The position numbers were made by a program, and so were the translations under genes. The notes under the pieces are model-generated. The model was not told the DNA's origin. It did no database searches and saw only the letters and a list, made by a program, of their open reading frames with translations. Shown here in pieces: positions 33,006 through 61,105 of a stretch of DNA of 64,000 nt (its first letter is position 1; the number at the start of each line of letters is the position of its first letter). Location: assembly GCA_938038445.1 (NCBI GenBank), contig CALHRZ010000004.1, positions 1 to 64,000 on the forward strand, read 5' to 3'. Origin of the DNA: an uncultured bacterium. Its GTDB lineage: Bacteria; Verrucomicrobiota; Kiritimatiellia; CAIKKV01.

Positions 33006-33052
33006 ATAGTTTTCATTGGTTTTTGAATTCGGGTGTTGAGAACAGGCCGTGA

Positions 33053-42000: not shown

Positions 42001-42631
42001 CGTATTCGCCTTTTGGGGCGAAGTGGTAGCGGGCTTCGAACTCGCACTCGACCGGCCCTTGGCGGAGCAGTCGGAACTCGAAGGAAGCGACTCGTCGTGC
42101 AGTGGTGAAACGGCTTCCTCCAAGCCATTCGGTAAAGCCGCCCGGGCGCCAGCCCGATAGCGGGCCTGGAACCTGGGAGACATCCACTGGCTCGGCGAAC
42201 TCCCGCTTGCCGAGCGGCGGCAACCGCAAGGCCAGTAGGGCATTGGAGATTTCCAGGCCGTTCTCGCGGGCGAGAACGGTCAATGAGCTTCCCTCTGCCG
42301 AACGGTCCCGGTCGGCCGCCGTCAGCGTGTATGTCACGGATGTTCCTCTCGCCACGGAGGCCACAAACGAGAGGGTATTGCCCTCGAGCTGAAACGGTTG
42401 CGCGTGTCCTTCGGCATTGAGCAACGCCAATCGGACGGGAGAAAAGCGATTGGTGTTGAGCGTATAGCGTACGACTTCAGGACCCCAGTCACGGATTTCG
42501 TAATCGGTCAATACGATTTGTCCGTTTTCGGGCACTGCCGCGCGTGAGAGGCCGCGTTCCTCACCGTCCGCCTGGGACAACCCGAATACGGATAGAGCCA
42601 ATGCCGTCGAAGCGTACCGTAAGATAACCAT
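39032..42631 (-). CDS. Secreted heparinase II/III-like protein (second of four)
   Basis: 1199 aa with a signal peptide (MVILRYASTALALSVFGLSQA, cleavage near residue 21). An N-terminal domain ('LTDYEIRDWGPEVVRYTLNT') is shared with its paralogues. 'HLGNNNMTFNRSFAL' lies near residue 572 and 'HWDTDALNVILYGKGAPLSP' near 789, the 217-residue spacing found in the other copies. Between them is the helical toroid typical of heparinase II/III and PL21-like lyases. ATG at 42631 has AAGGGA upstream. A GC-rich hairpin and a DUF4338 remnant separate it from the beta-repeat gene upstream. The GH20-like gene follows 120 nt downstream. Confidence 0.75.
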   Translation of the reverse strand: MVILRYASTALALSVFGLSQADGEERGLSRAAVPENGQIVLTDYEIRDWGPEVVRYTLNTNRFSPVRLALLNAEGHAQPFQLEGNTLSFVASVARGTSVTYTLTAADRDRSAEGSSLTVLARENGLEISNALLALRLPPLGKREFAEPVDVSQVPGPLSGWRPGGFTEWLGGSRFTTARRVASFEFRLLRQGPVECEFEARYHFAPKGEYVFRISLADGMPIAIIREDFDLGEIGEGQDVLLLELHRGWTPETILWVGMQAESRGIAPISRKPFSQYIEEKRKADTTSPPVGGMGRAPTPFMPEKELVLLDRTVPAGRWGGFVGGACLVEGEESNPASVRRLGFAPLFVGAWRRAMALDAWYREGTGMILALPIGVRRARWSLDMADDFSPFSTHEHDPALPETYGRRLWGLYVGDRIEEAQARFGYIGLDRYKDWIINLPDPTPQTQSPRPFYPPALVEAVKPLLDQHPDGWLLRQWYLFSGRPEDAIRNAQTVLNGLKSSYGENSFYVSGLTHYRQSESRVNTLLAEDALACPELPTDLRRELRRRLALYANLNSEPDFNPRGAGVHLGNNNMTFNRSFALTYFAALLPDHPRYEEWMEGVTRHFLFKIASQTAVDGPFIECPTYQLYSPARTLNVTLNALRNLGRVGAEAADYHWRTLEYLAHLTMPDPRFENRRIIPGMGNSANRLEEIFGISMAAIAEPKAAGFLRFMHSLSKGYGMRPPDFKGVWIHTHEAIPYIAWYRPDIPAQPRSLGTHFMPTYGVVFRSRFNTPDETAMLLRAGMNWSHWDTDALNVILYGKGAPLSPGTAYQYLPNPAPQQDNGIYHNRVKVGQRDLQEVFGRVDCTIADYSFAPLADYAVAERFYPSQLFADKQGAMRWRRHVAFVKNETPNATDYFVMRDTFPDGENRPKWWNWLNLDGADLIEVEGQPFDAAKAPYNQAVSEAEMPARRGQIVEMKTRYGASTWFWFSRPVEVRLRMTFGYPRQDGLGGAETKTIVEIPAAAGEDFFYVVWPRREGEPVPDCRLVAPDVVRIATPSTTDYIVMADAPVEFAGNGISFSGQAGVVRRTKTAAPTPLLTVAAKPRPSLDLGRGVVVKGEGPFQAELKDDAVVLRTDGRARVLHMTQPPWIIRPRLWIDGQEWMACWTDYPASGWGSYDQTWLIGIAVPAGPREIVVRNMVYPHPWPTRLAPLTHPHN

Positions 42632-45308: not shown

Positions 45309-48300
45309 TCAGGGTTCCTCCAAGGCGAAGGATACTTCTCTACTGCCATCCGTGATGCGAAGGGCACCGTTCTCGGCCGTGATGTGATCGTAGCGGTCCG
45401 GCTCATTTTTGCGATGGGGCAGGAGGATGGTGGTGAAGGCGCCCGCGCTCCGGATGCGGAGGATATGCTGGCGTTCCTCAGATTCTGTGACGTGACTGCC
45501 CCAAGCGGATACGGCCCAGTTTCCCAGCAAAGCCTGCGCGGGTTTTTCCACATGAACGTAAACCTCGACATCCACGTCGTAACGGCCATGAAAGTCGAAC
45601 CGGTGCATACCCGGGGCCAAATCGAAGGGAGGCGTTGCGGAGGGCAAGTCGGTTGGCGGAGCGCCTTGCCGATATTCGACGGTGGGATGGCGGTGTTCGG
45701 GGGGTGTGATAGGGCCGTGCGCAGTATTGACTGCGCCAGTCGCCATGAGGAACCACGAGGCGATCTTGGGAAAGGCCGCATCCGGCCCGTCGAAGGTATC
45801 CCGTATAACGATGATGGGTCGGGCGGAATTCGACCGGTCCACAATCGCTCGACGCTTCCAGGTGAGCCCGTCACGTTCGAAGACGGAAACCACACCGGCC
45901 CGATTGGCGGTGCTTAGAAAATTTGTTTGGCTTGATCGCGCCCATACGCGGGATCCACTCAAGGGGACGCCGTTCTGATCCCACGGGTGATCAAGGGCCG
46001 CTTCTGGGACCACGGTGCTGTGGAGATAGGGGCTGGGGGTATAGGGGGTGTAGATGGCCGACCAGGAGACGGAGATCGGACGACCCAGTGCGTAAAGCAC
46101 GAACATGCCATGATCGTGGTGACGGTGGTCGCGGTAGTGGTCTCCGTTGACGATCCACAATGCGGTTTCATGGGAAGTTCCCCAACCGTGACGCAGCACG
46201 GTATAATACCCTTGGAACGTTGCGTCGCCCAACTGGGGATCTGTAGCGGGAAGGCGGTCGTCGATCATCAGCAAGGTGCTTCCGAAGAAAGAGGAGTGTG
46301 GACGTCCTCCGGCGTGCCAGGCGCCCATCAATCGGGCGGACAAGGAGGGGTTGGCGTCGCGAAACCCTGTTCCGAGCACACCATAAATTTCCGACGGTTC
46401 GGTTCCGCTGTCGCCCAGAGCGATGAAACAGCGTTTCCCTCCCACTCGGGGTTCGGGTGGAGTGAGCAGGTTCAAGAAGAATTCTGCAAATTTTGCCAGT
46501 TTTGGCCATTCAACAAAAGGATCGAGTTCGCCCAGTTGCTTGACCTGCATGAGGTTGTTGAGCGTAGGGAGAAACGAGGCGCCCACGTAATGAGGGCATC
46601 CGATATGGGCACCATACTCGTTGATCTGTTGCTCAACGGCTGCACGTAAACCTTGCACAACCTGCGGCACACGTTCTCGCATGGTGGGATGCCGTCCCAT
46701 GAAGAGAGCATAAAAACGTCGATACCCCCACTGCTGGAGGGGCATATTCTCCGTGCCAAGATTCAGCCCATGCTCCGTGAAGCCGACCGGCGCGTGATCA
46801 TCGTCCCATACGAGATTGGCGAAGAGCACCGCGGCTGCTTTGAGGGCGGCCCGTTGGTCGTTTGGCAGATCCGGCTCGGCTAACAGTTGGTCAATCCACA
46901 CCCCGTACCGTTGCGCAGTCAGTCCTCCGTGCCAGTAGTGGCTGCCGAACTCATAAATGCCACCCCGATTTACCAGGTTTTCAAGAATGTTGCGGGCCGC
47001 GGCGACAACCTGCGTGACGGCCGCGTCCCGTTTGCCGGTCGGGTCGAGCCAGGCATCGAACAAGGGGCGGGTATATGGGTCGGCGTTATAGAGCCATCCG
47101 TAATAGGCTGGATCAGACCGCACGCGTTCTCGGACGGCGGCCATTGCGTCGGCATGCATAAATGCCCCGCCGTAACCACCTGACGGATCTGGAAAATCCA
47201 TAGACCATCTGTGCACTTTGTTGAGGTTAATACCACCATGAATATTCATCTGGCGGTTGATCGGTTGAAGTTCAGTCTGCTCACGCAAGTCCGCCTTTGT
47301 GCTTACGAATAATCCCCATTCAAAGCGGGAACGATGGAAGACGCGGGCATCGGGTCCCCGACGGAAGCTGGCACTGGCGATTCCGGCAGCGGGCGGACTT
47401 CCCCCGCGGTGAAAGACGCCCGGTCCGCTCATGTGGGCACCCAGCAACCGGGAAGCATGCCCCGCAAAGATGCCGATGAGCGGCGCCGATTCTCCGGCGT
47501 CGCGGTTGAATAGCTGCCAATACCAGCCGGTGTCGAAGCACCACGGGTCCCACAGGGCCATGCGGCGCCAGTTCGCCTCCGGTTTGGCGCCGGCGGGCGT
47601 TTGGGGATAGTCCAGATCCACTTGTGCATCCATTGGAGGACGGGAATGGGTCATTCGGTATACTTGTCCATCGGGCTCATAGCCGGCCTTTTGCGACCGC
47701 GCATGATGACCGCGGTATCGTCCATGAGTCGGACGCAAGGGCTCATAGAAGTTCAGCGACCAGTACACATCCATGTCGGTTTCTTCTTCGAAGAGGATCG
47801 AAGGTTGGCCGGCCTGGAGGGTGATCGTGCAGCGGTAGAAGCCGGGACCTTCCGGTGCGAGGGTTTGGGTGCCATACCGGTATTCGGGCCGGTCGAACTG
47901 GTGGTGCACCTCGGCCACAACCATGAGGGGGCCCCGTTCCAGAAGGCGCGTGCTCCCTTCGCGCCATTCTCCCCAGACGGACAACTCATTGGGTCCGGTG
48001 GCCGTCCAGGCGCCGTCGGCGAGGCGGATTCCCTGGACGGGGGCGAGAAGTCGTAGAAAGCTTTCCGTGGGCGAATATTTCGGCACGCGCACTGCGGTCC
48101 GGTTGTTTGCGATCTCGTAATGGGTGTCTGTTTCATGGACCGTAACGGTATCCGGGTTGGCGGGGAGCATTTCGCCTGGTGTGGAGGGATGAATCAGGGT
48201 CCAGGATTTTGTGGTGCCGGCGGGCAAGTCCGTTCGAACGGCGAGTTTCTTACCGTTGTCGAGAAATTGGAAGGGCACGGGTTCTCCGGCGTCGTTTACG

Positions 48301-48494
48301 ACCGCGGCATTTTGCGTGGGGGTACTGGGTGGCAGATCGAAGTCAATGATCTGGTCCGGGTGAGAGACGCCGAACCGTTCGACAATTTCGAAACGCAGGG
48401 GCAAAGCGTGGGGGATCGAATCGGGCTCGATTTTTCTTCCTGGGACGCATCCTGTCAGTGTGATTCCAGCCATGGCTACACATAATACTTTCAT
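45309..48494 (-). CDS. Heparinase II/III-like lipoprotein (third of four)
   Basis: 1061 aa from ATG 48494. The N-terminus MKVLCVAMAGITLTGC is a lipoprotein signal with lipobox LTGC (C16), unlike its paralogues, which have plain signal peptides. An N-terminal beta domain ('PHALPLRFEIVERFGVSHPD') is followed by the toroid with 'GTENMPLQQWGYRRFY' near residue 581 and 'HHDHGMFVLYALGRPISV' near 791. It would be anchored in the outer membrane facing the periplasm or outside. Start codons at 48503 and 48530 are possible; the -10 box of the promoter at 48502-48530 overlaps them, which argues for 48494 with a nearly leaderless message. The next gene is the beta-repeat protein, 150 nt on. Confidence 0.78.
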   Translation of the reverse strand: MKVLCVAMAGITLTGCVPGRKIEPDSIPHALPLRFEIVERFGVSHPDQIIDFDLPPSTPTQNAAVVNDAGEPVPFQFLDNGKKLAVRTDLPAGTTKSWTLIHPSTPGEMLPANPDTVTVHETDTHYEIANNRTAVRVPKYSPTESFLRLLAPVQGIRLADGAWTATGPNELSVWGEWREGSTRLLERGPLMVVAEVHHQFDRPEYRYGTQTLAPEGPGFYRCTITLQAGQPSILFEEETDMDVYWSLNFYEPLRPTHGRYRGHHARSQKAGYEPDGQVYRMTHSRPPMDAQVDLDYPQTPAGAKPEANWRRMALWDPWCFDTGWYWQLFNRDAGESAPLIGIFAGHASRLLGAHMSGPGVFHRGGSPPAAGIASASFRRGPDARVFHRSRFEWGLFVSTKADLREQTELQPINRQMNIHGGINLNKVHRWSMDFPDPSGGYGGAFMHADAMAAVRERVRSDPAYYGWLYNADPYTRPLFDAWLDPTGKRDAAVTQVVAAARNILENLVNRGGIYEFGSHYWHGGLTAQRYGVWIDQLLAEPDLPNDQRAALKAAAVLFANLVWDDDHAPVGFTEHGLNLGTENMPLQQWGYRRFYALFMGRHPTMRERVPQVVQGLRAAVEQQINEYGAHIGCPHYVGASFLPTLNNLMQVKQLGELDPFVEWPKLAKFAEFFLNLLTPPEPRVGGKRCFIALGDSGTEPSEIYGVLGTGFRDANPSLSARLMGAWHAGGRPHSSFFGSTLLMIDDRLPATDPQLGDATFQGYYTVLRHGWGTSHETALWIVNGDHYRDHRHHDHGMFVLYALGRPISVSWSAIYTPYTPSPYLHSTVVPEAALDHPWDQNGVPLSGSRVWARSSQTNFLSTANRAGVVSVFERDGLTWKRRAIVDRSNSARPIIVIRDTFDGPDAAFPKIASWFLMATGAVNTAHGPITPPEHRHPTVEYRQGAPPTDLPSATPPFDLAPGMHRFDFHGRYDVDVEVYVHVEKPAQALLGNWAVSAWGSHVTESEERQHILRIRSAGAFTTILLPHRKNEPDRYDHITAENGALRITDGSREVSFALEEP

Positions 48495-48501
48495 ACTTGC
48501 C

Positions 48502-48530
48502 ATACTACACTCAATACACCCATTAGACAA
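48502..48530 (-). promoter_or_regulatory. Sigma70-type promoter with GTATTG element (site 2)
   Basis: Minus-strand reading: -35 TTGTCT (48530-48525), 17-bp spacer, -10 TAGTAT (48507-48502). The spacer holds GTGTATTGAGTG, matching sites 1 and 3. An A/T tract (48533-48550) lies just upstream, as at site 3. The predicted transcription start is at or next to the ATG at 48494. Confidence 0.62.
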
Positions 48531-48614: not shown

Positions 48615-51600
48615 TTAAAAATGGCCCCGCTCGCGGCGTTCGGCTTCGGTTTCAAACTCCTCGCTCATGCGTTTGGCGATCCCTCGCAGGAGGGGGACGC
48701 CCAAGTTGGTCAGCAGGCATCGAATGAAGCGCCGGGCCCGCTCCGGTTCGTCGAGGTCGGTAAGGTGCCAACGGAGGTTGTCCAGGACCAAGGTTCCTGG
48801 GCCGACCCGATAGACTGTGAGGGCTCCGCGCCGCGTGAGGGAAGCGGCGTTTTCGGTTTGGGGGGGCAGACGGATGAGGGCGCTGGCCGGTTCGGGGTGA
48901 AGGGAGGCCAGGCTCCAAGGAGCCGATTTTGCCTTTTGCACTATCCAGTAGAGGTAGTTATTGGTCATACCGTTGGTCAGGGGGTGGGTATGCCGGAAGA
49001 CGTCCCATTCGCCGGGCTTAGCGGTTCCCGGGAGGACCTCGCCGGGAAGGTGGAGCGTCTGGAGCAGTTGGCGGGTTTGGGTGACGTTCAGCGCATGGAG
49101 GCAGACGGTTCGGCCGTTATGGAGGGTCTCCGCAAGGGGCGCCGTATTGGATTCGTCTATGCAGCGTCCATCGAGGAGGGCGATTTCGGCTTCGAGCGCC
49201 TTTTCCCAAGCTTCATTATTTCCCAGCCAACCGACCTCGAGCACCCTCTGCCATGCGTCGTCCTGGAGGCAAACTCCCACGGAACGGTCATTCCACGCGG
49301 GGCGGTATGTGGCGAGCGAGGCCAGGAGCTGCGCGGGGATGGGTGACTGTTCGAAGGCGGGGACCACTTCGAGGGTACTCACCAGAATGCTTCCTTTGCC
49401 GTAGCGCATTTCAAGCAACGGCGTGCAGGTCAGGCCGGCGCGATCGGTTCCCGCGGCCAACAGGGGGATTACGTTGCCCTCCTGGGGAATGTCGAGGCAG
49501 CGGCGGGCCACATAATAGGACTCTCCCCAGAGGGCGAAATCCTTGTTCTGGAAGCCTTTCAGCACAGGGTGGAAAGGGGCGACCGCATACGCAAAGGTGA
49601 TTTCCAGCCGGTTTTCCGGGGCGTATCCTTTTCCATTCGAGAGGGGGATGGGCAAATCGGCGAGCACGCAGAGGGGAGGGCGGTCGAGGATCAGGCACCC
49701 GCCTTCTTTGACGAAGGAGTCGAGTGCGCGACGCAGGCGGCGCCAATCGCCGGCATTCGCCCCATCGGCATCGAATCCGATCCAGAGGGCGCGAAGCGGG
49801 GCGAGCGATTCCTCGGACAAGTCGGAAATCAATCCGGGGCATTGGATGCCGCGCCGGTCGAGACGAAGGGACCATTGGCGGTTTGGATCGAACAGGCCGA
49901 AATCGTCGGGCAGAGCGATCCCGCATGACCGGGGATGGACGGTGATCGTCTTTTCCCAATAATCCACGACCGTGCCATCCTGCAACAGGGTGACGCGATA
50001 GAGAAGGGGGGTGGGTTCCGAGACATTGGGCGCGAGGAATCGGTTTTCGAAGGCGACGGATTCCCCGGGTTTCATCGTTCGCCGGGGCATTCGGTGGAGG
50101 GTGAGGGAGGCGCCATTTATCCGGGCTTCGCAGACGAGTTCGAGATTCGTCTCCTGTCGCGTATCGTTGTGCATCGAAAGGGGGAAGGCGATCTCTTCAT
50201 CGGCCAGGCATTCGGTACGGTAGTTGTGGTCGAGCACGGCCAGCGGGCGAATGGCGCGAACATAGACCGCTGCTTCTGGCTGGGCCAACAGTTTGCGGCA
50301 ATCGGTTTCGTTTCCCAGCAGGAACGACCACGCGCAAAAGCCGGAGACATCCTGCCGGCGGTAGGCTTGGGCTTCCATTCCCCAGAGTTTTTCCTGCACC
50401 TTGGCGGTTCCGAAGTCGGCTTCTTCGAAGGCGACATCCCCAATGATGCTGGCCTGATTATCCGGAGTGGCGCCGAATACGCAGGTGTACTCTCCGAAAT
50501 AGAGCGGTTTGTCTTTGCGCCAGACCCACGAGGGCATATGGGAATAACCGACACCGTACCAGGGGAACTTGAAGGGATGATCCAGCCAATAGGCCGTATG
50601 GGGATAATCGGGGAATGCTTGCCAGTTTTTCGGGTAATGGAGATTGTACATGGCGAGATGGCCGAGGAAATCCATGGCGGAGGACATTTGGATCACTCGG
50701 CTGTCGTCTTCGGCGGCCGCCTCGGCCAGGATGCGTTTAAAAACGCGGGTCATGGCCGCCATTTTGGCGGCATTCTTATCCTCGGTCAGATCCCAGGGGG
50801 TGATGGGGGACATTTCGTTGGAAAGGGACCAGATCACCACCGAGGGATTATTGCGGTCGCGTCGGACCAGGGCTTCGAAGAAATGATTCCGCACGTTTTC
50901 ATAGCAGGCGTCTTCGCTTCCCGCCCAGTCGAAGCTGTGGAAACCGGTTGTCCACAAGGCCGTTTCCGTGGTGATCAACATTCCGGCGCGATCGGCGGCG
51001 ATGACCCAATCCTTCGGCATCGGCCTGGCATGGAGACGGACGTGGTTGATGTGGCCTTCCACCTTAGCGATTCGGAAGAATTCGATCTTCTCCTCGAGGG
51101 ACATCGCGTGTTGTTTGGGGCCGATATGGCCGCTTTGGCCGAAGAGGTGGATTTTGCGCCCGTTGAGCAAAAAATCGTGGCCATTGATGGTGAATTCTCG
51201 GAAGCCGAACGTGTCGCGATGGAGGTCGAGACGGCGGGAGGCGATATGGGAATTTGCGGGGGGGACGGAGGGGGATCGTTCCGTTAGGGTTGTGCACAGA
51301 TCGTACAGGAAGGGGTCGTCGGTATCCCACCATCGGGCGTCAGGCCAAGGGATCTCTTCCTTGACCTGGATTGTGGTTTTGGCGGGCAGCACGACGTCGC
51401 GGTCGAGCAAGCGCTTGGGGGAGGGGAGGTTCCCTGCCTTGATCAAGCCGGGTTGGTTGAATCGGCTGGGCCGGGCGATGCTTCGGAGGCGGACCGTTGT
51501 TTCCCGATTCGTGTCGTTACTCAAGGCGACCGTGTAGTGGAGAGTTCCACTGGACACGGAAGGTTTGGCAAAGACGTACTCGACTCGGATGGGGGGCGCC

Positions 51601-52244
51601 GCTTCCAGGCGGACTTCATCCACTGCGCGGCCATCGATCCCGCCGTAATGGACGGGATGAACGAGGTTATTTTCGATTTCTTTGCAGGTGGGCAAGCGGG
51701 TGCCGGTAAACCGGTGCGGATCGAAGGGGCGATGTCCGCTGACGCCCACATCGCCGACTGTGATGACGATTTCGTTTTCTTCGCCGGGGCGGATGGCCTC
51801 GGTTACGTCCACGCGATGGGGTTCCAATCCGCCAACATAGTGTGTCACCTGGACGCCGTTGATTTCCGCTGTGACATGATAGCGGGCGTTGTTCAGGTGA
51901 AGAAGAACCGAATGGTTACGCCACGCGGGGGGGATTTTGACGCGTTGGGCATAGGTGAGAAAATGGGAGGGCAACCGTTTTGTCGGGGTCGAAGAACCTG
52001 CATTGCCGGCCTCGGTGGGAGTGGGAGTTTGGTCGCTGTGTGGTTTTTCCCCGTGTGCGCCTTCCAAGGGCCGCAAACCGTATTGCCATCCGCCCGGCAG
52101 GCTAATTTGGCGGGGGTGGTTTTCGGGGTCGTGAGCGAGTTCAAGTTCTTCGATCTTCAGGGGGCCGGGTTGGGCGGACCGCCGCGCATCGTGCTTCGAG
52201 GTCGAAACCCACCATCGGTTCTTCAAGTCGAGTCGGTTTCTCAT
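48615..52244 (-). CDS. Glycoside hydrolase family 2 enzyme
   Basis: 1209 aa, no signal peptide. The layout is a GH2 sugar-binding domain ('QRVKIPPAWRNHSVLLHLNNARYHVTAEINGV' region near 95-130), an immunoglobulin-like domain, and a TIM barrel starting about 365 ('FGFREFTINGHDFLLNGRKI'). The acid/base is E477 in 'VVIWSLSNEMSP' and the likely nucleophile is E585 in 'PLYFGEYTC'. About 600 further residues include a glutamine-amidotransferase-like or beta-sandwich region. Beta-galactosidase, beta-glucuronidase and beta-mannosidase are all possible; sequence alone does not tell. ATG at 52244 has AAGGAAA upstream. Lacking a signal peptide, it is probably cytoplasmic and works on imported oligosaccharides. 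Confidence 0.85.
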   Translation of the reverse strand: MRNRLDLKNRWWVSTSKHDARRSAQPGPLKIEELELAHDPENHPRQISLPGGWQYGLRPLEGAHGEKPHSDQTPTPTEAGNAGSSTPTKRLPSHFLTYAQRVKIPPAWRNHSVLLHLNNARYHVTAEINGVQVTHYVGGLEPHRVDVTEAIRPGEENEIVITVGDVGVSGHRPFDPHRFTGTRLPTCKEIENNLVHPVHYGGIDGRAVDEVRLEAAPPIRVEYVFAKPSVSSGTLHYTVALSNDTNRETTVRLRSIARPSRFNQPGLIKAGNLPSPKRLLDRDVVLPAKTTIQVKEEIPWPDARWWDTDDPFLYDLCTTLTERSPSVPPANSHIASRRLDLHRDTFGFREFTINGHDFLLNGRKIHLFGQSGHIGPKQHAMSLEEKIEFFRIAKVEGHINHVRLHARPMPKDWVIAADRAGMLITTETALWTTGFHSFDWAGSEDACYENVRNHFFEALVRRDRNNPSVVIWSLSNEMSPITPWDLTEDKNAAKMAAMTRVFKRILAEAAAEDDSRVIQMSSAMDFLGHLAMYNLHYPKNWQAFPDYPHTAYWLDHPFKFPWYGVGYSHMPSWVWRKDKPLYFGEYTCVFGATPDNQASIIGDVAFEEADFGTAKVQEKLWGMEAQAYRRQDVSGFCAWSFLLGNETDCRKLLAQPEAAVYVRAIRPLAVLDHNYRTECLADEEIAFPLSMHNDTRQETNLELVCEARINGASLTLHRMPRRTMKPGESVAFENRFLAPNVSEPTPLLYRVTLLQDGTVVDYWEKTITVHPRSCGIALPDDFGLFDPNRQWSLRLDRRGIQCPGLISDLSEESLAPLRALWIGFDADGANAGDWRRLRRALDSFVKEGGCLILDRPPLCVLADLPIPLSNGKGYAPENRLEITFAYAVAPFHPVLKGFQNKDFALWGESYYVARRCLDIPQEGNVIPLLAAGTDRAGLTCTPLLEMRYGKGSILVSTLEVVPAFEQSPIPAQLLASLATYRPAWNDRSVGVCLQDDAWQRVLEVGWLGNNEAWEKALEAEIALLDGRCIDESNTAPLAETLHNGRTVCLHALNVTQTRQLLQTLHLPGEVLPGTAKPGEWDVFRHTHPLTNGMTNNYLYWIVQKAKSAPWSLASLHPEPASALIRLPPQTENAASLTRRGALTVYRVGPGTLVLDNLRWHLTDLDEPERARRFIRCLLTNLGVPLLRGIAKRMSEEFETEAERRERGHF

Positions 52245-52292: not shown

Positions 52293-55200
52293 TTACGGTT
52301 GGGGGTGTAGCCGTGCCAAGTAGAAATGGCGCAATGCGGGCAATGTTGCGTTTTTCAGCGCTTCGAGATCGCGCAAGTGTTCGGGAGGGGTTTCCCGAAC
52401 GTAGGCCAGAGCGAGGGGGAGGGATTTGCGAGAGTCGGCTTCGGCCAATGCGCGGGCGATGGCGCGTCGGATCACAGGCGTTGTCCCAAGGTGTTGCGGC
52501 CTGAACCACGGGCGAATGTCCCGGATGGCCTGGGCGAGGTCCAGGATGGCTCGTTCGCAGTGTTGGAGCGCTTGCCGCTGCTCGTGGCCATCTCCGCCAA
52601 ACCGGAGGGCTTGAGCGAGCGCTGCCTGGCGATTGGCGAGCACCCAATGTTGACGCCAGTGGTAGTAGGGAAGGTCGAGACACGCCTTTGCCAGCAGGTA
52701 GGCGGTGTGCTCATCCTGCCTGCCGCAACGCCACAGGGCCCACAGGATGTAGGGACGGTACAAGCGGGTGGTATAGAAATCCGGAACGTTGCGGTAGTGG
52801 ACGGCGGCCCATTGGGCTTCCTGCGCGTCGAGTTCGGCATTGCGTTGTTGGAGGAACGGAATGGCGGCCGGGTCTCCCACAGTTGCCAGGCAGCGCAAAC
52901 GGGAGAGATCGGAGAGAGACCAATTCAGGATATTCTGGGCCGCAACCGTTGGGAGGGCTGTCGCCGCCAGTTCGCCTACCAGGTCATTCAACTGATGCGG
53001 AGGCGCAGCGACGAATCGCGCGGCCAATGTTTTCCACGGGGCGCTTTTTCCCAAACGGGGACGGGCGAGACGGACGAGTTCGGGATATGCCAACGGATCA
53101 ATCCGTCCGGCATGTTCGAGCCAATAGGTCACGGCGTTCAAGGCATCGGAATCGGATCCGTCGGCGAGAAGGATCCGCAGTCGCTCGGCGACCTCCATCT
53201 GTTGTTTTCGATCCCTCTCCCTTTCCTCAAGCAACGCCGTGAGTGCCGTCTCTTGGAGCCAGGCGCGGGCGTCATCCACCCGCTTTGTTCTCGCTGGGTC
53301 GGGGGGGGTTACGGTGTTCGCCCCTTGGGCCAGGTGTTGCAGGCAGTGCTGAGCCACTTTGGGCCACCAGGCGCTCTGCCACCAAGGGGATTCCGGTTGC
53401 CCCGAATTGGAAGCGGCCCATACGATGGCGCGTCCTTGGCCATAGGGTCCGGCGACGAGAAGCGGCACGCCGGAACGGGTTTCCATCAGCACCTGGCTGC
53501 CGGGTCGGGGTTCGATGTGGCTGATCCATTCGACGGAGGGTTTGTCGCCAAAATCGGGGGGCGTTGTGCCAAGCACTTGAGTGAACGCCGCTGTGGCTCG
53601 CACGGTTCCATCCATGGGGCGTACGCGGCGCAGGTAGGTCTGTTGGCGGGTGCGGACGGGCAACGCCTCCTCGAGGAACGATCCTTCGTATTGGCCTTTG
53701 GAGAGGGAGTACCAACTGCCGATGGCAAACACCCCCCCACCGCCGGCTACGAAATCCCGCAGGTCTCGGCGTTGGGCCAAAGAGAAGGCGGGGGCGGGCA
53801 CCGCGTCGAGCAACACGATGTCATAGCGCGCCAATTCGGCACGATCGGGCCAGGGGTGCATGGAGCCGGGATTTTGAGGAGAAAGGTCGGATAATCCGGA
53901 GATGCCCCGCATGATCGCTTCCTGTGCGACGGCTCCTTCCAGCATTGCATACGCTTCTTCCAACCGATGGCGATGGGAAAACGCGCCCCGCGCGTGCAAA
54001 ACGTCCGGATGTCCGTTTCGCGCGAGGGGCAGCGGCTCCGCCGGCTTTGGGTCCCATCCGGAATCGCGACCGCTTCGATGCGTCTCGAAGGAAACGGGTT
54101 CGTAGAGGACATCCCCGGGGGCGGTATCCGGGGGCAATCCCAGCGCGAGCGCTTTGTCGAGCACCTCGGGGGTAATCGGGATCCGGCCTTCGTTGATCGC
54201 GCGGATGGTGTTCTCGTCCAAATCCCCTTCGATCCGAAGAGCATCCATTTGGACGGGATCGGGGCACAGGGTATGCAACGGAGGCGCTTCGGGAGGATGG
54301 TCCAGCTCGATCACGACCATCGTCCAGAGATTGAGTTCGGGGATCGTGAGGCGGCCGTTTTCGAAGCGGGAAGGTTGCGGTTGAAAATCGTCTCGATCGC
54401 CCACGGCGAAGAGGTTTGCCACCGTGCAGCCCGGAGGCAGGGAGAGTTCGAAGGGGATTTGAGTCTGCGGGGGATTGAGATGGGTTGGGGGAGTCGAGGG
54501 GGTGCCGAACGTCGTGGCGTCGTTGAGATTGACCAGTTGAAGAATGAGTTGAAGGCGGGTGGGAGAGACCGACCGTTCGTACACGAAGGCATCCCATCGG
54601 AACGGCAAGTCGCCGACCGGTTTCAGAAAGTGGGCGGGATTCAAAAGGCGGCGCAGGGCGGGATCCAGAATAAACCGGGAGAACCGGGTGGCGAATCGGC
54701 GCAACGCGGGGGATCCGCCACCCATCGGGCGACTTCCTGCCGCGAAGAGGAGCGCTTCATTCCACGGGGTCTGATCGTCGAAAACACACAGGTAATAACC
54801 GCCATGGAGGCGGATGAAATCGCCCACATTTTGGAGGTGCCTGATGTTGTGGCTTGCGGGACCTGGCAGGTTCCGGTAGTACTCATCCATGCACAGACCG
54901 CCGCCGCGCGCTCGGGCGGCCAGGCACACGTCGGTGAACGCGCCTTTCCGCTCGCTATGCCGGGAGTCGATGGCGTTGTAGCCGAAGGCGAACTGAGGGA
55001 CCTGTTTGCGGATATGATCCTCGGCGATCTTGATGAGGCAAGCTGAAGAAATCGGGGTCAGGGACGACCATTCGCCATCGTAGCGCACGCCGTTCCAACC
55101 GAGCAATTGGGCGGAGCGGGCGATTTCGTCGCACCCGTAGAACGTCGTGGCGTGATTGCCAGGATGGGTCCAACACGAGATCCACATCTGCCAGAAATCC

Positions 55201-56648
55201 TCGTCTTGGCCGTGACTCCGGTAACGGCCTTCCAGCATTCGGTCGATCACGTCGACATCGAAAGCCTCATGGGCGAAGCCGGCATGGCCGAAGACATGCA
55301 TCCGTTCAGGAAAGGCGTGACTGTACTCGAGTCCCGCCAAGCCGCCGCCACAGGCTTTCCCATAGGTGATGGCGGCGATTCCGTAGCGGGAGAAGACGCG
55401 ATGAAGAATCTGGTAGGCGGAACGTTTCGAGGTGTATTGGGTCTGGCCCGAATAAATGGTCGAATCGTCTTTGGGCGTCATTTCGGAATAGTCGCAGGCG
55501 GCCCAGGCAAACTTCTCATACACATTGCAATAGCGTTCCATATTCTCGCGGGCGATCCGCTCGGCCTCGGCCACCGCCTGTTCTTCGGTCCATGATTCCG
55601 AGCCGAACATGGGGACGCCTCTTCCGTGAATCGCGACCATCCAGGGGTTGGTGACCACGCTCACCGCATGGGTTCCGATGTCTCGGCCGCGCGCTGTTGT
55701 GACGTGGGCTTCAAATCCCCGCCCCCACAAGGGTTCCCCGACGGCGAATGGGGCGGTTCGGCGCACCCGGCTCCGCGGGGGCAAGGCGAGCGATTCCACC
55801 AAGAGAGGGTGGCGATTGGTCAATTCCGTCATCATCATCGTTGTAAGTCGGGCGGCTTGATCCTGATCGGACAAGTTCTCCAGTTCGACTGTTAAGGTGC
55901 CGTGGCTTCCTGGCGAATAGGTGATGCGATCGCTCGAAACGTGGGTCACAATGACCGGCCCGGATAGAGGGATGACGCGGAGGGTCTCGAGAAGAATCAT
56001 GGGGATCTTTCTTCCGGAGATATCCGTCACGGTCGCCTCTTTGACATGTGCCAGGAGCGACTCCAACTCCTTGTCTTTTTCGGTGGTCTCGTGTCCATCG
56101 TGTGGAGGGGCGAGGGAATGCCAGGGGTCTCCGAGATCGAGGGCCGTGAGGCGATTCCATTCGTTTTGCATTTCCGGAGAACGGCTGGCGGAGGGCATGA
56201 TTTCAAGAGTGAGCGTTTTTTCTCGGTTGACGATGTCGATCGCGAGGGGGCGGCCCTGGTCGAGGGTTTCGATGGTTTGGCTATCCCGAACATTCTTGGC
56301 GTTCAGAGCAACGGTTCTTTTTCGGAGGTGGACGCCTTGCCTGTTGGAACGGAGGGTTGCTTCGATTCGGTAGCGCCCGGGGTGGAGGTCCAAGCGCATG
56401 GACCAGCCCTTGTCTTCGACGAGGACGCCTTCCGGTCCGGCGGTTCCGATTCGTGCCGGATGACCGGGCAATGATTTGCCGCGCCATTCGGTCTCTTCTG
56501 CAAGTCCGGCCTGGAAAGCAAGCCATGCGGCGGCGAGTGGGAGGGCCATGCAAAGGTTCCGGAGGCGGAGGTGTTTGGGGTTTGCTTTCCGTGGGGTGGG
56601 CGTTTCGGCTGTCGGCGGTAAGGAGAACGGGGTGATCCTTCTCATCAT
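52293..56648 (-). CDS. Large secreted multidomain protein with GH66-like barrel
   Basis: 1451 aa. A hydrophobic segment ('MALPLAAAWLAFQAGLA', residues 34-50) should be the signal, preceded by a 33-residue tail if the ATG at 56648 is used; the ATG at 56549 gives a standard signal peptide instead. After beta-sandwich regions ('HPGRYRIEATLRSNRQGVHL') a barrel-like part has 'VYEKFAWAACDYSEMTPKDD' near 385 and 'LGWNGVRYDGEWSSLTP' near 535, recalling GH66 dextranase-type enzymes. A glutamine-amidotransferase-like domain follows ('RRDLRDFVAGGGGVFAIGSW' near 960, 'GPYGQGRAIVWAASNSG'), then helical repeats to the end. I do not recognise the whole architecture; the substrate is unknown. It follows the UroD-like gene by 4 nt. 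Confidence 0.6.
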   Translation of the reverse strand: MMRRITPFSLPPTAETPTPRKANPKHLRLRNLCMALPLAAAWLAFQAGLAEETEWRGKSLPGHPARIGTAGPEGVLVEDKGWSMRLDLHPGRYRIEATLRSNRQGVHLRKRTVALNAKNVRDSQTIETLDQGRPLAIDIVNREKTLTLEIMPSASRSPEMQNEWNRLTALDLGDPWHSLAPPHDGHETTEKDKELESLLAHVKEATVTDISGRKIPMILLETLRVIPLSGPVIVTHVSSDRITYSPGSHGTLTVELENLSDQDQAARLTTMMMTELTNRHPLLVESLALPPRSRVRRTAPFAVGEPLWGRGFEAHVTTARGRDIGTHAVSVVTNPWMVAIHGRGVPMFGSESWTEEQAVAEAERIARENMERYCNVYEKFAWAACDYSEMTPKDDSTIYSGQTQYTSKRSAYQILHRVFSRYGIAAITYGKACGGGLAGLEYSHAFPERMHVFGHAGFAHEAFDVDVIDRMLEGRYRSHGQDEDFWQMWISCWTHPGNHATTFYGCDEIARSAQLLGWNGVRYDGEWSSLTPISSACLIKIAEDHIRKQVPQFAFGYNAIDSRHSERKGAFTDVCLAARARGGGLCMDEYYRNLPGPASHNIRHLQNVGDFIRLHGGYYLCVFDDQTPWNEALLFAAGSRPMGGGSPALRRFATRFSRFILDPALRRLLNPAHFLKPVGDLPFRWDAFVYERSVSPTRLQLILQLVNLNDATTFGTPSTPPTHLNPPQTQIPFELSLPPGCTVANLFAVGDRDDFQPQPSRFENGRLTIPELNLWTMVVIELDHPPEAPPLHTLCPDPVQMDALRIEGDLDENTIRAINEGRIPITPEVLDKALALGLPPDTAPGDVLYEPVSFETHRSGRDSGWDPKPAEPLPLARNGHPDVLHARGAFSHRHRLEEAYAMLEGAVAQEAIMRGISGLSDLSPQNPGSMHPWPDRAELARYDIVLLDAVPAPAFSLAQRRDLRDFVAGGGGVFAIGSWYSLSKGQYEGSFLEEALPVRTRQQTYLRRVRPMDGTVRATAAFTQVLGTTPPDFGDKPSVEWISHIEPRPGSQVLMETRSGVPLLVAGPYGQGRAIVWAASNSGQPESPWWQSAWWPKVAQHCLQHLAQGANTVTPPDPARTKRVDDARAWLQETALTALLEERERDRKQQMEVAERLRILLADGSDSDALNAVTYWLEHAGRIDPLAYPELVRLARPRLGKSAPWKTLAARFVAAPPHQLNDLVGELAATALPTVAAQNILNWSLSDLSRLRCLATVGDPAAIPFLQQRNAELDAQEAQWAAVHYRNVPDFYTTRLYRPYILWALWRCGRQDEHTAYLLAKACLDLPYYHWRQHWVLANRQAALAQALRFGGDGHEQRQALQHCERAILDLAQAIRDIRPWFRPQHLGTTPVIRRAIARALAEADSRKSLPLALAYVRETPPEHLRDLEALKNATLPALRHFYLARLHPQP

Positions 56649-56652
56649 GGCG

Positions 56653-57585
56653 TCAATATCCGGCGTTTTTCCAACATTCATCCCAAAAAGCGCGTTCATT
56701 CGCTTTTGGGGCGCCAATGAGCAGTTGGTCAGGGGCTGCAATCCAGCCGCCGCCGGGTGCCCAAACCGCGAAAGCGGCGCGGACTTCCGCCGACACCTTC
56801 TCCGGCGTTCCGGTATGGACGATCCGCGAATCGATTCCGCCCAGAACGGCCATTTTGCCGCGGACCTGCTCCTTGACGCGGCGGCGGTCATTGGCCGTGA
56901 CCTGGACTGGGTTCAGAATGTTCACTCCCACAGCCATGAGGTCGGGAATGATCCGTTCGATCGCACCGCAGGAGTGAAAATCAATCAGCACTCCTCGGCG
57001 TTTGGGTTCTTCGAAACAGGCTTCATAGGCGGGGAGCAAAAACCGGCGGAAGAGTTCCGGTGAAAGCATCAGATCGTGCTGGGTGCCCAAATCTTCACTT
57101 ACGTGCAGAACATCAATGCCTAAATCCAAGAGGCGATGGATGCAGACGCGGTTATAGTCGACGATGCCGTTGATCAAGCGCTGCAACCGATCGGGATCTT
57201 CATAGAGGGCCAGCATAAAATTCTCCATTCCCATGAGGCAGCAGAGGCGTTCGCACACAAACTTGATGTGGCTGCCGCCCACGAGGATATCCCGTTGTTT
57301 TAGCGCTTCGAGATGACGCTGGTCTTCGTCGGTCCATGTCAACGCCCAGGGGTCGGGGAGCGCATAGTGGTCGAAGTCGGCGAGATTGGCCAAAGGGTGT
57401 CCCACGTCGATCGGGACCATTCCGGGCTGTTCGGCCTGCCAGACGACGCCCCAGGGATCGGTCCAGGATTCGTATCTGAAGTTGCCGCCGAGTTGGACAG
57501 CCTCCCACACGGTTCCGTCGAAGACGGGGACTCGGGCGGAAGGATTGAAATGGAGGGCGGCAAGCGTGTTGGCTCGGGTGTTCAT
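56653..57585 (-). CDS. Uroporphyrinogen decarboxylase-family protein (methyltransferase-like)
   Basis: The 310-aa protein has the URO-D barrel fold seen in both HemE and the corrinoid methyltransferases MtaA/MtbA. The block 'GVLIDFHSCGAIERIIPDLM' carries the H-x-C zinc-type ligands of the methyltransferase branch, and 'VGVNILNPVQVTANDRRRVK' and 'MAVLGGIDSRIV' follow. This pattern and the sugar-degradation context point to a cobamide-dependent methyltransferase or an uncharacterised branch rather than haem synthesis. The corrinoid protein at 1888-2526 would be a natural partner. ATG at 57585 has no strong ribosome site. The next gene starts 4 nt beyond its stop. Confidence 0.82.
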   Translation of the reverse strand: MNTRANTLAALHFNPSARVPVFDGTVWEAVQLGGNFRYESWTDPWGVVWQAEQPGMVPIDVGHPLANLADFDHYALPDPWALTWTDEDQRHLEALKQRDILVGGSHIKFVCERLCCLMGMENFMLALYEDPDRLQRLINGIVDYNRVCIHRLLDLGIDVLHVSEDLGTQHDLMLSPELFRRFLLPAYEACFEEPKRRGVLIDFHSCGAIERIIPDLMAVGVNILNPVQVTANDRRRVKEQVRGKMAVLGGIDSRIVHTGTPEKVSAEVRAAFAVWAPGGGWIAAPDQLLIGAPKANERAFWDECWKNAGY

Positions 57586-57667: not shown

Positions 57668-60600
57668 CTACAATTCCGTTGAAGTTTCCAAGGGGGTGAA
57701 GGTGACTTTTCCGTCGGGCGATCGGCTGAATACAGCCGCGGCGCCCGTGACGGGTTGGCCTTCGATGGAGTATTGACCTGGAGTTGGCGCCAACAGCACG
57801 GTGTCCACCCGACCGTTTGCGAACGTCACCCGGATGGCGTTACCCTGGAGCAGAGTCTCGAATTGGGGGGGCGGTTCCTCTGTTTTTCGAGGGGCCAGAA
57901 CGGTGAAGAAACCTTCCCCGGGCTTTTGAAGGATTTGCAGCAGGATTTGTTCTTCGCGGAACGGTTTTCCGAAGGTTTTTTGGTAGTGGCTTCCGAATGG
58001 GCCTGGGCCGGCGTTGGAGTGACCGACCTTATGGGTGACCGGTGCGAAGGATGCCGGCTCAGCCACATAGAGATCCAGATCAACGCCATGCTGACCCATC
58101 CAGGTGGCACGGGGTCCTTCCACCTTTACGTCATCGGCCAGACACCAGTAGTTGAGCGCAGGGGTAAGCGAGGGGTTGCCCGTGAGAGTGTCGCGAATGA
58201 CCAAATAGTGAGGACCTTGGACATCCGGGCTTTTGACGAAGGCGACCTGCCGGCGCCACTCGATTGGGGAATCGAGCCAAACGGATTCAGGCTCGCCGCG
58301 GCCGAGGAATTGGCCGTGGGAGGGTGCGAGCATGTAAGGAACGCGGTCGAGATAGCGCGTGCGGCGGCGCATGGCGGCGTAGTCGGCCTGTGGGGACGAC
58401 ACGAAGGAGTCGGCCCGGCCGAACACTTCATCCAGATCGGTTGCATCGGGGGGCCAGCCTATTTCGAGGCAGGTGAACGGTTCCGTTTTGTGTTCGACCC
58501 AGACCTTTCCGGTGAAATAGCAGCCTGGCGAGTCGCGGCCGGGGCAGGGACGGACTTCCTCGCGGTGGTCGAAAGTCACCATGCCGTTGTGCAGCCAGGA
58601 TTGGCTGATGCTTGGGGAATATTGGCTGGCGAAATCGAGCATCAGCGGGGCGCCTTTGGCGTAGAGGATGAATCCGTGCCGATCCGAGTGGCCGTGGCCG
58701 ATGGCGAAACCGCCGCAGTTGAGGTTGACGTAAGTTTCTTCGGGATGAGGGAATCCGCTGCGGAGGACGAAACCGCTGCCGGCGAAATGCGTGGAGCGCA
58801 GGTCGGGCGTTTTGGGTTCAAGGTCGGTCGGCACCAGCAATCCCGGAGGGGTGCCATGCGAGGCGAGCGAGGCGGCATTTTCTAGAATGCCCCACATGAG
58901 GGTTGCAGCCAATTCCCGATCTCGTGAGGCGAGGGCACCGACAAGAAATGGGAAAGCAAGCTCGACGGCGAGCGGGGAGTCGCCAATCGGGGCGGCAGGG
59001 CGGATGCCGCCGCGCACATCGGGCGGAGTCAAGTAGGACAATCTGTAACGTGCGGCGGCCTGCCAAAGCGGGAGCAGATCGGAGAAATCCAGGGTGGGGT
59101 CGGCGTCGGCCAGCATTATGGTAGGAACGGTAGCGAACTCAATCGCCATCACCCCATAGGCGCCGATCTCGAGTGTGGCACCGGCGGGATTGATCTTTTC
59201 GTGTGCGTTGAGTTTGATGAAGCGGGCCAGAAAGTTGCGCCAGAGTGGTCCGTTGGGGTGATTGGGCAGGAGGGCGACCATCGGCGTGGCCCCGCGCAGG
59301 CGAAGGGCTTCCATCATGTTGGCCGAGCCCCAGCCGTAACCGGCCTCGCGCGGCGGCACGTAGTCAGGCGACAGCGCGTTGTAGGCGCAAGCGGCGGCGT
59401 AGCGACGAATCCGGCTCGCCTCCTCGGGGGCGCACTCTGGCGCGGCAAGCGCCACGTCGGCCAGCCAGGCCAGCCGCGGCAGGTTCATGGCGTAACCGTT
59501 GTGATCGAGCCCGACGGTCGCCATGCGGCGGCACATATCGCCCAGAGAGCCGATTGCCGAGGCGACGACCCTTTGGCCGGCAGCGGGATCACTGCTGTTC
59601 AAATAGCTGGAGGCCGGGTGGATATCTCCGACCAGCCATTTCCGGGCGCGCTGACGCAACTCCTCCCGATTTCCAGGGTCTCCGTGAAGGCGGGGGTAAA
59701 GGGCAGTTTCCGGATATTCGAGCACCCAATCCTTGATTTCATCGAGTTGTTGGCGGCCGTGGCGGATGTGCTTGAGCATCAACCGGCTTGGAGGGAGGTC
59801 TTCTGCATTATAAGTTCCTTCGAGAGCCGCAATGGCATAGACTCTTCGACCCAGCATGACAGGCGCGCGGAGGAAGAGATCAGACCTGGCCTGCCGTTCG
59901 ATCCAGAGGTTGTTGGTCTGAGTCCATTGTTTGATCGTCTTGATCGGCTTGGGATCCAGGTCAGGGTTGATCCATTGGGAAGGGCGCAATCCGATGATAG
60001 CCACTTCCCGTCCCTTTTGGGGATTGTAGGCGCCGAAGAAAAGCGCCTCGTCCGAACCCCAGTTCAGAAAAGCGTTGATGCTGACGATGCGGCTGTCCTT
60101 GTCCATGGGCAGGGGTCGCCAGACGGTTCTGTGAGGAGTTCCGTGGGAGTCCACTCCGGGGAAGAGGTGGAACATGCGGCCACTCCACTGGCAATGGGTG
60201 GGTTCGAGTCCGTCGTGGAAAGCGAAGAAGTAGGCGTTGGGTGAAGGGACTTTCCCTCCCGTGCCGCTCCACCAGTCCCACAGCAGCCCGCGGTCGGGTG
60301 GGTCGAACTTTGGAAGAACGAAACGATATGTTTCTCCAGGTTCTCCTGGCAGTTCGGGCATTTCGTACGCGCGGCCATCGCCCAGGTTGAACTCTTCGCG
60401 AACGATGGCCAGGTCTTGGCCTGCATTGAGTTCAATTGTTGCCGCGTAGCCGGTGTTGTCTTCGAAGTCATACCGCAGTTTGACGCGGGCGAAGACCGGC
60501 CCGCGTTCTTCGATCGTGACCGTGTAGCCTCGGCACGCGCGTTCCGTCTGCCACCATCCTCGCCCGATCCATGTGCCGTCTGGGAACCGGATGGCTTGGA

Positions 60601-61105
60601 TCGGGGCGGGGATATGGGCAGGGGAAGCGGGCGGGTCGAAGCGGTGAGAGCCGCCGGGCAAGCGAATGCCGAACCGGGAGGTGGTCAACTCGACCGTGCG
60701 CTCGTGTTCGGCGACATTCAAGTCGGAGGCGACTGGTGCCGTGGCTGTTTTTTCGGCCTGCAGCGTCCAGGATGCGGTTTCGTCGGGCTTTAGGCTCGCC
60801 ATAAAAGAGATCGTGGCGGATCGGATCGTCTGGCCATCAGGCCAGAGCACGACGTCCGAAAGTTGCACGGGAGCGGACGTTTCCTCCGCGGTTGTCAATC
60901 GTGCCCCATTGCGCCTCATTACGCCCTCAGGAAACTCGACGCGATAATTGACGCGGTCCGGACCCCAAGCGATTCCAAACGGCTCGTGAATCGTGAACGT
61001 TTTCTCAAATGCTACCGTCTGAAGGGTTCCAGCCAGGGTCAGGGCGAGAACGGGACCTGCCCATGTGTTGATTTTCCAGTTGAGCGACGATGGAAATATC
61101 GGCAA
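57668..61105 (-). CDS. Secreted heparinase II/III-like protein (fourth of four)
   Basis: 1145 aa from a TTG at 61105 with AAAGGAAAG 7 nt upstream; the signal peptide runs to about residue 33 (cleavage near TVA). Near residue 593 'WGSANMMEALRLRG' and near 803 'GHGHSDRHGFILYAKGAPLM' occupy the places of the two conserved motifs; the second is the best match in the window to the H-x-H-x-D type of the heparinase II/III C-terminal sandwich. 'IGHGHSDRHG' with the following 'LDFASQYSPS' is the most canonical version. The gene follows the broken beta-protein gene, just as the first copy follows the intact one. Substrate unknown. Confidence 0.78.
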   Translation of the reverse strand: MPIFPSSLNWKINTWAGPVLALTLAGTLQTVAFEKTFTIHEPFGIAWGPDRVNYRVEFPEGVMRRNGARLTTAEETSAPVQLSDVVLWPDGQTIRSATISFMASLKPDETASWTLQAEKTATAPVASDLNVAEHERTVELTTSRFGIRLPGGSHRFDPPASPAHIPAPIQAIRFPDGTWIGRGWWQTERACRGYTVTIEERGPVFARVKLRYDFEDNTGYAATIELNAGQDLAIVREEFNLGDGRAYEMPELPGEPGETYRFVLPKFDPPDRGLLWDWWSGTGGKVPSPNAYFFAFHDGLEPTHCQWSGRMFHLFPGVDSHGTPHRTVWRPLPMDKDSRIVSINAFLNWGSDEALFFGAYNPQKGREVAIIGLRPSQWINPDLDPKPIKTIKQWTQTNNLWIERQARSDLFLRAPVMLGRRVYAIAALEGTYNAEDLPPSRLMLKHIRHGRQQLDEIKDWVLEYPETALYPRLHGDPGNREELRQRARKWLVGDIHPASSYLNSSDPAAGQRVVASAIGSLGDMCRRMATVGLDHNGYAMNLPRLAWLADVALAAPECAPEEASRIRRYAAACAYNALSPDYVPPREAGYGWGSANMMEALRLRGATPMVALLPNHPNGPLWRNFLARFIKLNAHEKINPAGATLEIGAYGVMAIEFATVPTIMLADADPTLDFSDLLPLWQAAARYRLSYLTPPDVRGGIRPAAPIGDSPLAVELAFPFLVGALASRDRELAATLMWGILENAASLASHGTPPGLLVPTDLEPKTPDLRSTHFAGSGFVLRSGFPHPEETYVNLNCGGFAIGHGHSDRHGFILYAKGAPLMLDFASQYSPSISQSWLHNGMVTFDHREEVRPCPGRDSPGCYFTGKVWVEHKTEPFTCLEIGWPPDATDLDEVFGRADSFVSSPQADYAAMRRRTRYLDRVPYMLAPSHGQFLGRGEPESVWLDSPIEWRRQVAFVKSPDVQGPHYLVIRDTLTGNPSLTPALNYWCLADDVKVEGPRATWMGQHGVDLDLYVAEPASFAPVTHKVGHSNAGPGPFGSHYQKTFGKPFREEQILLQILQKPGEGFFTVLAPRKTEEPPPQFETLLQGNAIRVTFANGRVDTVLLAPTPGQYSIEGQPVTGAAAVFSRSPDGKVTFTPLETSTEL

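Follow-up and report, generated by a model that had tools for sequence, protein, structure and literature searches.

The largest protein encoded in the window, the 64,000-nucleotide stretch of DNA analysed here, is probably (at a probability of about 0.7) a secreted retaining glycosidase, or else a transglycosidase, from an unnamed GH66-related clade in which an amidotransferase-like (GATase) fold serves as assembly or active-site partner. In this family the barrel is almost always fused or adjacent to an inactive-looking GATase fold, a pattern that points to a novel type of glycan-degrading enzyme built from two parts. In the open-access literature searched we found nothing on GH66 in planctomycetes or on GH66 with a GATase-like domain.

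Uninterrupted translation of the gene (Table 1) and the list of open reading frames confirmed that its 1451-aa product is the longest among the proteins of the window. The reading frame stays open as far as position 56891 (1532 aa), but the stop codon of a UroD-like gene is followed after 4 nt by the ATG at 56648. The most hydrophobic 13-residue stretch of the whole protein, aa 32–44, is consistent with a signal peptide and agrees with the initial annotation, made from the sequence alone, which had called the product secreted. That annotation had also proposed a GH66-like barrel, an amidotransferase-like domain and a helical C-terminus, and each part was borne out by Pfam, profiles or structure models. 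In the Pfam search GATase1_like alone passed its cut-off, an NCBIfam search of the protein gave no match, and promoter and terminator scans performed no better than chance.

Table 1. Coordinates of the barrel gene, its predicted domains and residues, and its neighbours in the window
Feature	Position	Strand	Evidence
GH66-like barrel, GATase-fold and helical-tail protein, 1451 aa	52293..56648	-	translation, Pfam, model
N-terminus, aa 1-50, with signal-peptide-like hydrophobic stretch	56499..56648	-	hydrophobicity
N-terminal beta domain, aa ~75-155 (low to moderate confidence)	56184..56426	-	model residues 35-115
Ig-like domain N-terminal of GH66, aa 218-331	55656..55997	-	profile and model
GH66-like (beta/alpha)8 barrel, aa ~332-670	54639..55655	-	model, structure matches, hhalign
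C-terminal beta domain of GH66 module, aa 675-783	54300..54626	-	profile against PDB, model
GATase1_like (PF07090) fold, aa 880-1109, elbow without Cys	53322..54011	-	Pfam and model
Alpha-helical (HEAT-like) tail, aa 1110-1451	52293..53321	-	model
Codon of E378, after barrel strand 1 (30/30 in family)	55515..55517	-	A3 conservation
Codon of D524, predicted nucleophile, end of strand 4 (29/30)	55077..55079	-	model, A3, hhalign
Codon of E589, predicted acid/base, end of strand 6 (30/30)	54882..54884	-	model, A3
UroD/MtaA-like gene, ending 4 nt before the ATG of the barrel gene	56653..57585	-	Pfam, NCBIfam
Lyase-like gene (alginate lyase/heparinase III-related profile)	57668..61105	-	Pfam, profile
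GH2-like gene, 48 nt downstream of the barrel gene	48615..52244	-	Pfam, NCBIfam
Second lyase-like gene, same lyase-like family	45309..48530	-	profile

Both profiles and structure prediction place the first module near GH66. A profile built from relatives in the same genome and phylum (A1) matched the CITase 5x7g in the PDB with an E-value of 1.1e-9, along with other GH66 structures, and a 30-row family alignment (A3), used for the barrel model and for residue conservation, gave a GH66 match with an E-value of 1.4e-14. The AlphaFold model of the barrel part (from A3; m7a8461502ee2) had a pLDDT of 80.7 and a pTM of 0.81. Its best 18 Foldseek matches in the PDB were all GH66 (5axg, E 3e-25, TM 0.69 by target), followed by a beta-glucuronidase (E 1.4e-12), and the first 15 VIA-align matches were likewise all GH66, with Z-scores from 26.6 down to 23.1 (best match 3wno, Z 26.6, rmsd 3.1, 490 residues aligned). 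The glycosidase-like barrel on which the initial annotation hinged was present in the prediction, and it is GH66-like. With hhalign, the family profile aligned over 481 columns both with one canonical GH66 protein (E 9.6e-8) and with a set of nine (probability 99.7, E 2.5e-25, 15% identity), the GH66 ORF of L123 having been left out of the ten canonical loci. Profile, model and hhalign agree on the GH66 domain order of an Ig-like N-terminal domain, a barrel and a C-terminal beta domain. Identity of the module to solved GH66 enzymes is about 12–16%; the Pfam family of GH66, PF13199, did not match the barrel of the window protein even at E ≤ 1, and at E ≤ 0.01 it matched 12 of the 30 members of A3.

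The barrel and the GATase fold stayed linked despite at least five switches between fused and split arrangements. For the survey of relatives, A1 was too divergent for a pattern scan and a closer set (A2) was used instead. A genome scan with barrel motifs yielded 29 loci labelled as Planctomycetota, Armatimonadota, Verrucomicrobiota, Lentisphaerae, Omnitrophota, uncultured bacterium and, in one case, Proteobacteria. Barrel matches occurred in 7 of 58 close genomes, and a single genome (G391) held 22 of them in about 20 genes; a barrel-GATase profile at E ≤ 1e-20 matched 17 of the 387 genomes of the phylum, some matches covering the GATase part only. No plasmid relatives were found. Once eight ORFs on duplicate contigs had been dropped, 54 distinct barrel ORFs remained, both halves of one broken gene being counted; of these, 33 were fused to a GATase part and 21 had one within 3 kb. 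These counts carry a bias from loci L031–L035, which came from a whole-protein query; the remaining barrel loci were found by queries with the barrel alone or by its motifs. The 21 split pairs mostly overlap or abut on the same strand. Two loci scored as split are L089, whose overlapping genes are probably a broken fusion, and L030 (C7:92500-112000 of the window's own genome), a second family member whose barrel and GATase-tail genes are divergently oriented and separated by 1.4 kb. A GATase part was also present in seven of ten further barrel loci, six of which had been found with a profile that includes this part; in L129, L135 and L136, two of them at contig ends, none was found in the available DNA, relaxed search included. 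At canonical GH66 loci it was found in 0 of 10, with 9–19.5 kb examined per locus.

A tree of 62 barrels, from which the eight duplicate-contig ORFs and both halves of the broken gene of L034 were left out, comprised 20 proteins fused with a tail, 13 fused without a tail, 26 split and 3 without a partner. The split label required eight changes on this tree, at least five of them forced by well supported branches. All 20 fused-with-tail proteins, that of the window included, fall within one 24-row group, whose support (92/96) is under the starred level of the tree; the window protein itself sits on a long branch (1.38), with a best identity of 30%. The initial annotation knew of no named family with this domain order; the family is indeed unnamed, but the order is not unique to the window, since the search for homologues with the same order returned these 20 distinct proteins. 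In four split loci (L035, L069, L076 and L128) the barrel is flanked by, or lies next to, two genes that carry a GATase part, and some have a beta domain at the N-terminus that weakly resembles DUF5107/GH38C.

The fold of the amidotransferase-like domain is real, being supported by Pfam (PF07090, aa 962–1084, 31.5 bits against a cut-off of 27) and by a second model, built from a 26-row alignment of the GATase-tail part (A4; pLDDT 82.1, pTM 0.81); a nucleophile Cys is missing from it, however, and it resembles the oligomerisation domains of the GH42/GH164 type more than an amidotransferase. The elbow of the window protein reads GSW, with Trp where class I glutamine amidotransferases have Cys. 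Weak matches to Glyco_hydro_42M and LBP_M occur in some relatives, and GATase domains were found also without a barrel. We consider it unlikely that this domain is itself an enzyme, for instance an amidase or esterase, and the protein a bifunctional glycan processor. Such a role would accord with the conservation of the domain, seven positions being invariant in the 26 rows of A4 (G91, G92, P118, P183, G191, G193 and G204), and with its closest fold matches, the stand-alone GATase1-like proteins 2gk3, 3soz and 3rht (Z 20–23). However, 21 of 22 domain-bearing rows, that of the window included, lack the elbow Cys and have W, E, Q, S, Y, H, G, M or P at this position, Cys occurring in L094 only. 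Moreover, the next matches of the model were Op5Man5, GH42, GH112 and GH164 (7bob among the structures), and published accounts of GH42, GH164 and Op5Man5 assign this fold to trimerisation (PMC7105311, PMC8233224). According to these accounts the domain contacts the barrel of the neighbouring subunit in GH164 and Op5Man5, and it seems to have a part in positioning the active-site residues of GH164.

The catalytic pair of PsCITase, Asp309 and Glu381, is described at the ends of barrel strands 4 and 6 (PMC5408701). D524 and E589 occupy these places in the model of the window protein. D524 also aligned with the GH66 Asp in hhalign; the Glu did not align cleanly in either the one- or the nine-protein comparison, and E589 is placed as the putative acid/base by strand order. 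W382, like E378 located after strand 1, is invariant in the 30 rows of A3. The two active-site elements proposed in the initial annotation fared differently: the Asp of 'YDGEW' is D524, the predicted nucleophile, but its Glu is not conserved and is His in most relatives, and 'DYSEMTPKDD' proved to be a partly conserved loop after strand 1, non-catalytic by position. The FYD motif on strand 1 was present in all nine canonical GH66 proteins examined, whereas its Asp occurs in none of the 30 family rows, and the -1 site may therefore differ from that of dextranases.

The likely unit that had been proposed for the barrel gene, the UroD-like gene and the lyase-like gene upstream of it was confirmed, the gaps being 82 nt from lyase to UroD and 4 nt from UroD to the barrel gene; the GH2-like gene follows after 48 nt. 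The window encodes four paralogous lyase-like proteins on the minus strand (29157-33056, 39032-42631, 45309-48530 and 57668-61105), which are 1070–1300 aa long and almost devoid of Pfam signal; their joint profile matched the alginate lyase 6jpn with an E-value of 8.1e-11. All copies of this family found in the genome are these four. Elsewhere the family occurs near barrel genes in L060/L083, L066, L084, L085, L087, L091 and L095, is abundant in G391 (27 match rows) and G379 (30 match rows), and was detected in two of eight canonical-GH66 genomes searched. In L091, a homologue of the second lyase-like gene of Table 1 stops immediately ahead of the barrel gene, and the close homologue of the GH2 gene (E 0) lies near the relative in L031, a locus that ends at its contig end. 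GH42-like and GH20-like genes are also present in the window, and several barrel relatives sit in non-glycan contexts. UroD/MtaA-like genes were observed near barrel relatives in L032, L035, L059, L071, L085 and L104; within the glycan run of the window, this gene, a member of the methyltransferase family, perhaps serves in the removal of methyl groups.

From the lyase-like, GH2, GH20 and GH42 neighbours, the substrate is probably a complex glycan and not dextran, for which the gene context gives no support; this context hints that the glycan perhaps contains uronic acids. It is quite improbable that the protein is a conventional dextranase or CITase that carries accessory domains: the GH66 domain set and catalytic pair would fit such an enzyme, but the low identity, the missing PF13199 match, the loss of the FYD Asp in 30 of 30 rows, the lyase-like and GH2 neighbours and a genome in which no canonical GH66 was found all argue against it.

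The tail of about 342 residues is all helix in the A4 model, in agreement with the helical C-terminus proposed earlier, and its helix pattern can be read as HEAT-like; HEAT_PBS was matched in one relative only, and weakly (L100, E 0.035). The VIA matches of the A4 model were taken up by GATase structures, and the tail fold had no match of its own among them. Tails of at least 250 aa occur in 30 distinct GATase-bearing proteins, that of the window included. A single-sequence search with the window tail did not match other tails, and a tail profile built without the window detected it weakly (hmmsearch E 0.0046; hhalign E 1.3e-6), the best of 201 shuffled or reversed control sequences in hmmsearch reaching E 13; homology of the window tail to the others is thus weakly indicated, yet above controls. 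Although this tail suggests protein contacts and many copies occur in one genome, a dead barrel acting as a non-catalytic glycan-binding or scaffold protein is very improbable, given an Asp/Glu pair that is nearly invariant across several phyla.

For the retaining glycosidase or transglycosidase that we favour, we propose that Asp524 would attack the anomeric carbon and that Glu589 would act as acid/base, with retaining hydrolysis or transglycosylation as the outcome. The GATase-fold domain would pack against a barrel, either that of its own subunit or that of a neighbour, in the manner of the GH42, GH164 and Op5Man5 trimerisation domains, and may help to shape the active site, while the helical tail may hold a partner or anchor the enzyme. 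A fixed arrangement of the GATase fold relative to the barrel is plausible from the pTM of 0.81. More tentatively, and with the odds somewhat against it, these proteins could constitute a new GH family, in which a barrel with a GH66-type Asp/Glu pair and an independently recruited, obligate GATase fold, needed to complete or gate the active site, in one chain or as two subunits, would act on a uronic-acid glycan, with an expansion to about 20 copies in G391. If our interpretation is correct, the GH66 fold extends beyond alpha-1,6-glucans, the GATase fold gains another case as glycosidase partner, here of a barrel whose catalytic layout differs, and a function can be assigned to a large family in the little-studied Verrucomicrobiota, Planctomycetota and Armatimonadota, whose barrel mostly carries no Pfam label.

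The closest known relatives of the barrel are the GH66 dextranases and CITases (PF13199; 5axg, 5x7g, 3vmn and 8iu8), which share with it the Ig-like N-terminal domain, the (beta/alpha)8 barrel, the beta C-terminal domain, the Asp at the end of strand 4 and the Glu at the end of strand 6. The window protein differs from them in its 12–16% identity, the lack of the FYD Asp in its family and the addition of a GATase-fold partner and a helical tail. The stand-alone GATase1_like proteins (2gk3, 3soz and 3rht) have the same fold, and the domain passes their Pfam cut-off; they are short, whereas the domain described here is coupled to a barrel and in many cases also to a helical tail. GH42 beta-galactosidase, GH164 and Op5Man5 likewise combine a TIM barrel with a following GATase-fold domain, a likeness of fold only. 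Their catalytic Glu pair is described on strands 4 and 7 (PMC7105311, PMC8233224), in contrast to the predicted Asp/Glu pair on strands 4 and 6 in the present family, in which the GATase-fold domain can moreover be encoded by a separate gene.
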